From contig CAMARK010000011.1 in assembly GCA_945860205.1 (NCBI GenBank), forward strand, positions 1 to 64,000: a stretch of DNA of 64,000 bases, in the 5' to 3' direction. Made by a program: the position numbers and the translations under genes. This document shows positions 9,051 to 10,689 of this stretch, piece by piece. The notes under the pieces were generated by a model. The model ran no database searches. It saw only the letters and a list, made by a program, of their open reading frames with translations, and was not told the DNA's origin. The stretch comes from Reyranella massiliensis 521 (GTDB lineage: Bacteria; Pseudomonadota; Alphaproteobacteria; Reyranellales; Reyranellaceae). Numbering within the stretch: the first letter of the stretch is position 1; every line of letters begins with the position of its first letter.

Positions 9051-9235
9051 CTAGAGTCCTTCCGACTGGTATCGAATCGCCTGATCTGGCGGACAAAACA
9101 ACCTCATGCTGAGGAGCCGTGCGAAGCGCGGCGTCTCGAAGCATGGGCTGCAGCATGACTGGTTCCCACCCTTCGAGACGGCGCTGCGCGCCACCTCAGC
9201 GTGACGTGAGTTTGGGTGAGTCGGAAAGACTCTAG
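9051..9235. repeat. Nested inverted-repeat element (185 bp) with 17-bp termini
   Basis: The ends CTAGAGTCCTTCCGACT (9051-9067) and AGTCGGAAAGACTCTAG (9219-9235) are inverted repeats matching at 16 of 17 positions. Inside, 9101-9206 is a second large palindrome: CCTCATGCTGAGGAGC pairs with GCCACCTCAGCGTGACG, and CGTCTCGAAG pairs with CTTCGAGACG. The inner part matches the widespread CCTCATGxTGAGGAGC/GTCTCGAA intergenic palindromes of Rhizobiales. No open frame is present. It fills most of the 284-base gene-free spacer. Confidence 0.75.
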
Positions 9236-9314: not shown

Positions 9315-9929
9315 CTACCTTCCTTTCGCCTTCAGCCAGGCATCGATCACCGCAATTTCCTTTTCCTGCGCCGTGATGATGTCCTGCGCCAGCTTCTTGA
9401 CCTCCGCGTCCTTGCCGTTGGCGAGATCGACCTTGGCCATGTCGACGGCAAGCTGATGGTGGGGCCGCATGTGGATCATGAAATCGAGATCGGCGTCGCC
9501 GGTGAACTTCATCATCGGCATCCCGTCCATCATCTTCATCATGGCGGCCTTGTAGCCCTTGGTGGAGGCCGAGTCGCTCGGATCGGGGGCCATCATTTTC
9601 ATGTCCATGCCCGACTTCATTTCCATGCCCTTCATGTCCATGCGCTTCATGTCCATGTTCGTCATCATGCCCATGGCCTTGTGCAGTTGGGCACTGCAGC
9701 CCTTCTCGTCTTTCTTCGCCATCATGTCCTTGGCGATGTCCATTTCCTTCATGACCGCCATCTTCTTGCCGGCGTCCGTCATGGTCATCATGGAGTCGTT
9801 GGCGGCCTTCATGCTGGCCTCGGAGCAGGTCATGCCGGCCATTGTGCCGGAAGTCTGGGCAAAGGCCGGGACTGCGCCGAGCAACGCGGTCGAGAGAGCG
9901 ACGCAGATTAGCGGGCGGATCATCCTCAT
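9315..9929 (-). CDS. Exported Met-rich DUF305 protein (probable metal-binding)
   Basis: 204 residues: signal peptide 1-24 (cleavage after AFA), a Met-rich centre (repeats of MDMK, MEMK and MDMKMM about residues 90-115), and a DUF305 domain at the C-terminus with DFMIHMRPHHQLAVDMAK followed by a long amphipathic helix. The His-His and Met clusters resemble periplasmic copper or silver binding proteins; DUF305 proteins often sit in copper-resistance clusters. Metal binding is inference. GGAAGGAA precedes the ATG. An exact EcfG promoter lies about 50 bases upstream and faces a second one for the divergent small-peptide/DUF302 pair. Confidence 0.82.
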   Translation of the reverse strand: MRMIRPLICVALSTALLGAVPAFAQTSGTMAGMTCSEASMKAANDSMMTMTDAGKKMAVMKEMDIAKDMMAKKDEKGCSAQLHKAMGMMTNMDMKRMDMKGMEMKSGMDMKMMAPDPSDSASTKGYKAAMMKMMDGMPMMKFTGDADLDFMIHMRPHHQLAVDMAKVDLANGKDAEVKKLAQDIITAQEKEIAVIDAWLKAKGR

Positions 9930-9980
9930 GGCGGTTCCTTCCGGGTGGTTACGGTCAATTGATTGATCGGGCTCGGATCA

Positions 9981-10005
9981 AACGCACGGGCACGCGCCAA
10001 GTTCC
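9981..10005 (-). promoter_or_regulatory. EcfG-type promoter of the DUF305 gene
   Basis: Minus strand: GGAAC at 10005-10001, 16 bases, CGTT at 9984-9981. Full consensus match, with the -10 box about 50 bases before the start codon at 9929. Its -35 box is 19 bases from the -35 box of the divergent promoter. Confidence 0.72.
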
Positions 10006-10024
10006 GCGATTGCAGGCAAGTCGG

Positions 10025-10049
10025 GGAACTACCGGCCGATCCGTGCGTT
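10025..10049 (+). promoter_or_regulatory. EcfG-type promoter of the 42-residue peptide and DUF302 genes
   Basis: GGAAC at 10025-10029, 16 bases, CGTT at 10046-10049. Full consensus match. The next start codon, at 10113, is about 57 bases past the expected transcript start. Confidence 0.72.
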
Positions 10050-10112
10050 GCCCCGTTGGGTTGGGAGGCCCGCTCGTCAAAGCCCGCCCAAACCTTTCTG
10101 AGGAGTACGAAC

Positions 10113-10241
10113 ATGATGGGCGGCAGCGACGGCTGGGGGATGGGTTGGGGAATGGGTGGCTTCGGCGGGATCGGGACGATCGTGGTCGTGTTGGTCGTCC
10201 TGGGTATCGTCTTCTTTGCGTTGCGGCGCCGGAATTCGTGA
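10113..10241 (+). CDS. 42-residue Gly/Trp/Met-rich single-span membrane peptide
   Basis: Begins MMGGSDGWGMGWGMGG and continues with one hydrophobic segment (about residues 19-36) ending in three Arg, a typical inward stop-transfer. AGGAG lies 7 bases before the ATG. The Gly-Trp-Met head would face the periplasm, a composition seen in short peptides of copper or heavy-metal gene clusters, often annotated as SHOCT-like though the SHOCT helix is absent here. It is the first gene after an EcfG promoter and is probably co-transcribed with the DUF302 gene 61 bases on. Its function is unknown. Confidence 0.7.
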   Translation: MMGGSDGWGMGWGMGGFGGIGTIVVVLVVLGIVFFALRRRNS

Positions 10242-10302
10242 CCATCGGAGTTCGTGACCGAGGGCAGGCCCGTCCGCATCCCGACTCCGTTGAGGTATTC
10301 GA

Positions 10303-10689
10303 ATGAAATATTATATTTCCAAGGTCGTGAGCGGCGGCTTCCCGGCCGTCGTCGAGCGCGTCGTCGAGGCCCTCAAGGCCGAGGGTTTCGGCGTCCTGAC
10401 CGACATCGACGTCAAGGCGACGATGAAGAAGAAGCTCGATATCGACTTCCGCGATTACCGGATACTCGGCGCCTGCAACCCGCCGCTGGCCCACGAGGCG
10501 CTGACCGCCGACGACAAGATCGGAACCATGCTGCCGTGCAACGTGATCGTCCAGGACCTCGGCGGCGGCCGGATCGAGGTCGCCGCCATCGACCCGGCGA
10601 TATCGATGCAGCAAGTCGGCAATCCGGCGCTCAAGACGATCGCCGAATCGGTCACCGGCAAGCTCGGGCGGGTCATCGCCGCCATCTAG
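10303..10689 (+). CDS. DUF302 domain protein
   Basis: 128 residues, all DUF302: VVERVVEALKAEGFGVLTDID at the start, then YRILGACNPPLAHEAL and MLPCNVIVQDLGGGRIEVAAIDP, including the conserved Cys of LGACNP and of PCNV. There is no signal peptide. The fold is a small alpha/beta domain of unknown function, often linked to thiol, metal or heat stress loci. It lies 61 bases after the small membrane peptide gene and probably shares its general-stress promoter. Confidence 0.85.
   Translation: MKYYISKVVSGGFPAVVERVVEALKAEGFGVLTDIDVKATMKKKLDIDFRDYRILGACNPPLAHEALTADDKIGTMLPCNVIVQDLGGGRIEVAAIDPAISMQQVGNPALKTIAESVTGKLGRVIAAI

Follow-up and report, generated by a model that had tools for sequence, protein, structure and literature searches.

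The locus lies in a stretch of 64,000 nucleotides from Reyranella massiliensis 521, the whole of which we call the window. It holds a DUF305 gene on one strand and, on the other, a short peptide gene followed by a DUF302 gene, with two EcfG-type promoter motifs in the interval:

9315..9929, minus strand: DUF305 gene, an ORF of 204 aa (Pfam PF03713, E 2.3e-9, 38 bits against a cut-off of 27)
10005..9981, minus strand: EcfG-type motif GGAAC-N16-CGTT on the DUF305 side, exact match
10006..10024, no strand: 19-bp spacer between both -35 boxes
10025..10049, plus strand: EcfG-type motif GGAAC-N16-CGTT on the peptide-DUF302 side, exact match
10113..10241, plus strand: 42-aa peptide with a single span, Gly/Trp/Met composition and an RRR tail, a short form without signal peptide
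10303..10689, plus strand: DUF302 gene, 128 aa (Pfam PF03625, E 2.1e-26, 92 bits against a cut-off of 23)

A sequence-only reading of this DNA had placed two exact EcfG-type motifs back to back, 19 bp apart, and we found both the motifs and their coordinates to be right. Open reading frames and Pfam matches also confirm the genes that it described, namely a 42-residue peptide followed by DUF302 on one flank and an exported DUF305 protein on the other, with the peptide N-terminus corrected here to MMGGSDGWGMGWGMGG. The peptide ATG is preceded by GAGGAG, and the end of the motif is separated from the start codon by 63 nt for the peptide and by 51 nt for DUF305, both plausible spacings for a promoter. 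On the far side of the DUF305 gene, between it and a CNNM-type gene, the window contains a 20-nt inverted repeat that is 85% complementary (9128-9184).

To place these genes among their relatives, the DUF302 protein was scanned against a genome collection. The best 80 of 100 loci were kept, several of them from metagenome bins, and among these DUF302 is spread over many phyla. The 11 nearest (L090-L100, 81-89% identity) include nine with a homologue of the peptide 5′ of DUF302, ending 38-102 nt before it. In L094, one of the two exceptions, the peptide's position is occupied by a single-span SHOCT-domain protein that has a Gly/Tyr/Met/Trp head; it belongs to the SHOCT-type small membrane proteins, whereas the window peptide is without a SHOCT domain. 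The other exception, L092, has neither peptide nor SHOCT protein, and the position is taken by a small exported protein (…ELKPSLNCHPPS…). A similar protein is found upstream of DUF302 in L090, and its family was not recognised by eye. For the other 69 kept loci, a filter for the peptide upstream of DUF302 found none, save a SHOCT-like ORF in L151; L119, a partial DUF302 match, has less than 0.3 kb of upstream sequence.

We then asked how much weight the promoter motifs can bear. Counted over the whole genome, GGAAC-N16/17-CGTT occurs at 95 sites and the reversed pattern at 88; because this is no enrichment, a lone site carries little weight. At the site density of simulated windows, a genome should hold 0.012 divergent pairs spaced within 100 bp, or about 0.045 at the real site density (by arithmetic from the 95-site count), and no such pair arose in 60 simulated windows.

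Recurrence of the motif was measured in 16 upstream regions of 300 bp and compared with 2000 simulations. The regions are those of the window's two genes, the nine peptide homologues, two genes for homologues of the N-terminal domain of the DUF305 protein (N-domain genes, L090 and L091), a DUF326-DUF305 operon (L171), and the L092 and L094 genes, which belong to the same DUF302 clade and lack the peptide. In this set, which includes near relatives (L095, L096, L098, L099) and is partly non-blind, the L090 and L091 motifs having been noticed before the N-domain genes behind them were named and the L171 region having entered after the DUF305 search, we found GGAAC-N16/17-NGTT in 11 of 16 regions (simulated mean 0.117, maximum 2 in 2000), the -10 box having been relaxed at its first base for this analysis. 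The exact CGTT form was present in seven (simulated mean 0.036, maximum 2 in 2000), and the reversed pattern gave 0/16 for CGTT and 1/16 for NGTT. Restricted to the 10 peptide regions, the window's among them, the set has 7/10 with NGTT and 3/10 with exact CGTT, the exact motif also standing 5′ of the peptide in L097 and L100. Within the 300-bp regions no motif stands 5′ of the peptide in L090, L091 and L095 or 5′ of the L094 and L092 genes, and none stands at eight more distant N-domain genes examined.

The genome of the window encodes PhyR (C33:9184-10008), and a NepR profile search of the same genome gave no match. Adjoining phyR is a 58-aa membrane-protein ORF, which we take to be DUF1328-like, with an exact EcfG-type motif just 5′ of it (L223, G000:C33:10019-10237). 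The consensus GGAAC-N16-CGTT is the same as that given for the EcfG/PhyR regulon of Sphingopyxis granuli, for which the excerpted account also names CATT and TGTT as -10 variants (PMC7083833). Recurrence 5′ of homologous genes and the presence of PhyR in the genome support the identification of the two motifs as putative EcfG-type promoters. That both are fortuitous and the genes are driven otherwise would fit the near-equal genomic counts of the motif and its reverse, and is rejected as exceedingly improbable given how far its recurrence in homologous and linked gene regions exceeds the simulated expectation.

The peptide itself looks like a real gene from its substitution pattern, pN being lower than pS in 45 of 45 pairs of peptide sequences (for instance 0.04 and 0.26 for L095/L096, and 0.10 and 0.55 for window/L091). 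Eight of the nine homologues are precursors of 75-96 aa with an apparent signal peptide, and the long forms run, by eye, from the signal peptide through a Gln/Gly stretch and a Trp/Gly/Met head to one span and a three-Arg tail. The L095 ORF runs on upstream. A signal is lacking in the window's 42-aa copy and in L097 (Reyranella, 45 aa). By the positive-inside rule, both forms would have their head on the outside. The peptide had been described as tiny, which holds in the window and fails as a rule for the family.

Family models offered no name for it, since none in Pfam or NCBIfam exceeded its cut-off. For DUF3309 (Pfam PF11752; cut-off 22.3 bits) the window peptide scores 19.5 bits and the L097 homologue 18.6, and neither the window peptide nor five homologues matched the SHOCT domain. 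Direct searches with the peptide against 61 relatives, 385 genomes of the class and a plasmid collection returned no clear homologue, nor did a longer homologue against the plasmid collection; the homologues surfaced only through reading upstream of DUF302 matches. One of the 10 genomes matched at E <= 0.01 by a peptide profile run on the 385 class genomes is that of the window, and the other matches are weak. One short profile match (L052, G223) is a 45-50 aa membrane ORF with a Gly/Met/Trp head, and its neighbours appear by eye to be cytochrome-like, thioredoxin-like and multicopper-oxidase-like ORFs. With homologues in nine of the 11 near relatives, the earlier view of a genuine, conserved peptide is borne out, with no family model searched reaching its cut-off.

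An alternative for the C-terminal part is that the span and RRR tail form a processing signal of the GlyGly-CTERM kind, at which an intramembrane protease would release or anchor the Gly/Trp head. Matches to GG_III-CTERM (L091 homologue, 20.0 bits against a cut-off of 22) and to GPS-CTERM in NCBIfam (window peptide, 16.2 bits against 28) point that way; as both fall below cut-off and the L099 homologue has no NCBIfam match, we regard such a sorting signal as very unlikely.

On the opposite strand, the DUF305 protein is exported (signal peptide by eye) and consists of a two-Cys N-terminal domain (residues ~26-90, with C35 and C78), a Met-rich linker and a CopM-type DUF305 domain (~109-204). It had been called Met/His-rich; the methionine part is correct (36 Met, or 19% of the chain after residue 25) and the histidine part is not (only 4 His). 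Judged from its sequence relationships, the protein is a fusion, and one relative, the L090 genome, encodes its two parts as separate genes. Over its first 90 residues it shares 51% identity with a 92-aa exported protein that is encoded separately in L091 (a Pseudolabrys bin), and the L090 N-domain copy is 87% identical to that L091 protein. The L090 genome also has a Cys-rich DUF326 gene behind an exact motif, followed by a DUF305 gene whose DUF305 domain shares 84% identity with that of the window (L171:1080-1920). Since the N-domain and DUF305 of L090 each stand behind a motif, both halves exist separately behind the same kind of motif. A search of the plasmid collection with the N-domain gave no match, and the structural model of the fusion is poor (pLDDT 57) and was used only for its helical outline.

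Among solved structures, CopM is the best sequence match to the DUF305 domain (E 1e-14). The CopM protein of Synechocystis, as described in the available part of PMC4335983, is likewise an exported, Met-rich protein with a DUF305 domain. It has two such domains, no cysteine and copper-responsive CopRS control, whereas the window's protein has one DUF305 domain, an added N-terminal two-Cys domain and an EcfG-type promoter. The score for NCBIfam CopM (NF049983), 86.4 bits, is narrowly under the cut-off of 90, and we therefore do not claim CopM membership. The window's genome also holds a second, 134-aa DUF305 protein (L224, G000:C12:6973-8015), overlapped by an ORF that reads as LTXXQ-type.

Next to peptide and DUF302, the DUF305 gene is a local feature. 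The flanking sequence retrieved around DUF302 in the 11 nearest relatives, up to 4 kb, contains no DUF305 gene, and DUF305 occurs anywhere in 5/10 of their genomes. DUF305 faces peptide-DUF302 only in the window, and the recurrent unit is peptide plus DUF302. The proposal of three genes forming one conserved unit was rejected on the absence of DUF305 from the relatives' flanks; what survives of the proposed order and promoters is the pairing of peptide with DUF302 and the recurring motif.

This arrangement raises the question of whether the two arms belong together. DUF305 and peptide-DUF302 could be unrelated stress genes that share a control region and a sigma factor and do not work together, as their being adjacent in the window only would suggest. 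Against this, two of the nine relatives (L090 and L091) have, close to peptide-DUF302, a homologue of the DUF305 protein's N-terminal half, and we consider an unrelated pair unlikely.

Several relatives place these genes in a copper context. The order in L091 is exact motif, N-domain gene, multicopper oxidase (456 bits for CueO against a cut-off of 525), peptide and DUF302; in L090, peptide and DUF302 are followed by an N-domain gene that has an exact motif to itself, at a locus that also has an outer membrane efflux protein. L097 carries CueR ~2.4 kb upstream (167.8 bits against a cut-off of 147.4) and an LTXXQ protein downstream, L100 a copper P-type ATPase (594.7 bits against 397), and L093 a response regulator with a histidine kinase. 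Around the window's genes and in L095, L096, L098 and L099, no copper genes were recognised by eye. In a Sphingomonadales bin (L115:3560-3970), a DUF326 protein with 17 cysteines is encoded directly 5′ of DUF302. DUF326 proteins can store copper. Copper storage by DUF326 proteins is reported in the title of PMC12510493, and in the excerpted Sphingopyxis account an ecfG2 mutant is copper-sensitive (PMC7083833). The same excerpt contains 0 occurrences of DUF305 or DUF326, and the literature, as far as its available text goes, yielded no description of an EcfG/PhyR regulon arm of this make-up.

The DUF302 protein carries two cysteines, C58 and C79, that are present in 90 of 90 sequences. Its structural model (39 sequences, pLDDT 95) has the same fold as TT1751 (1j3m; TM-score 0.89, identity 40%) and APC35924 (1q9u; TM-score 0.90, identity 30%). 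Both of these are structural-genomics proteins of unknown function, whereas in the window a membrane peptide accompanies DUF302. A tree was built from 56 of the 90 rows (the 34 dropped being L119 and L137-L169), and it places the window's copy within the peptide clade (98/99), apart from seven copies of its own genus (100/97). Those seven have no peptide and no motif upstream; in 7/7 examined, a FAD-type oxidoreductase gene, and not copper genes, ends 14 nt upstream, and one of these oxidoreductases matches Pyr_redox_2 (Pfam). The place of the window's DUF302 apart from its own genus would follow from horizontal transfer or from an old paralogue. In partial texts, DUF302 genes are reported within sox clusters (PMC5037610, PMC11034169) and bordering a metal-resistance island (PMC7760498), and a microoxia table lists a Bradyrhizobium DUF302 protein beside FixG (PMC6515984); these and the other texts, as far as available, assign DUF302 no function.

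These neighbourhoods lead to the main rival of the copper reading, that the stress concerned is one of sulfur or persulfide (thiol), in which the peptide would tether a two-Cys, sulfur-handling DUF302 to the membrane, with the Met-rich DUF305 protein as an accessory. The oxidoreductase next to all seven same-genus copies, the sox clusters (in the excerpts cited above), the two invariant cysteines and the many loci, among the best 80 of 100 for DUF302, that come from sulfur-oxidiser genera such as Thiobacillus and Sulfuricella are consistent with this. The window's DUF302, however, belongs to the peptide clade, in which CueR, a multicopper oxidase and a copper ATPase are found nearby, and DUF305/CopM and DUF326 point to copper; a sulfur role is accordingly a doubtful, if real, possibility.

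We found relatives of the parts again behind a switch of the same kind or next to genes for copper detoxification, and the locus therefore probably represents a kit, little studied so far, that protects against copper (or sulfur). The theme of envelope metal or thiol stress put forward in the sequence-only reading is supported by the CopM-like DUF305 domain, the copper genes of relatives and the invariant DUF302 cysteines, the trio as one unit having fallen away. Our best reading, to which we give about even chances, is an EcfG-switched set for envelope protection against copper or soft metals (thiol), made of a CopM-like binder and a membrane peptide paired with a two-Cys DUF302.

Under this copper or soft-metal reading, the PhyR pathway of the alphaproteobacterial general stress response would free an EcfG sigma factor under stress, and transcription would proceed both ways. 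The leftward transcript would supply a periplasmic, Met-rich copper buffer in which a two-Cys helical domain is fused to a CopM-type DUF305 domain. The rightward one would supply a single-span membrane peptide, with its Trp/Gly/Met head outside and its RRR tail inside, and DUF302, whose two invariant cysteines may deal with metal or thiol at the cytoplasmic face, with the peptide as putative membrane partner. More tentatively, the general stress response may carry a dedicated, pre-emptive Cu(I)/thiol arm, in which CopM-type and DUF326 proteins act as buffers and the new peptide, paired with DUF302, senses soft metal or sulfane sulfur or carries it across the inner membrane.

The shortest members of the peptide family may be skipped by gene callers. 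A small membrane partner and a stress promoter beside DUF302 make the role of DUF302 testable and, if the reading is true, general stress would be linked to copper or sulfur protection through named genes.
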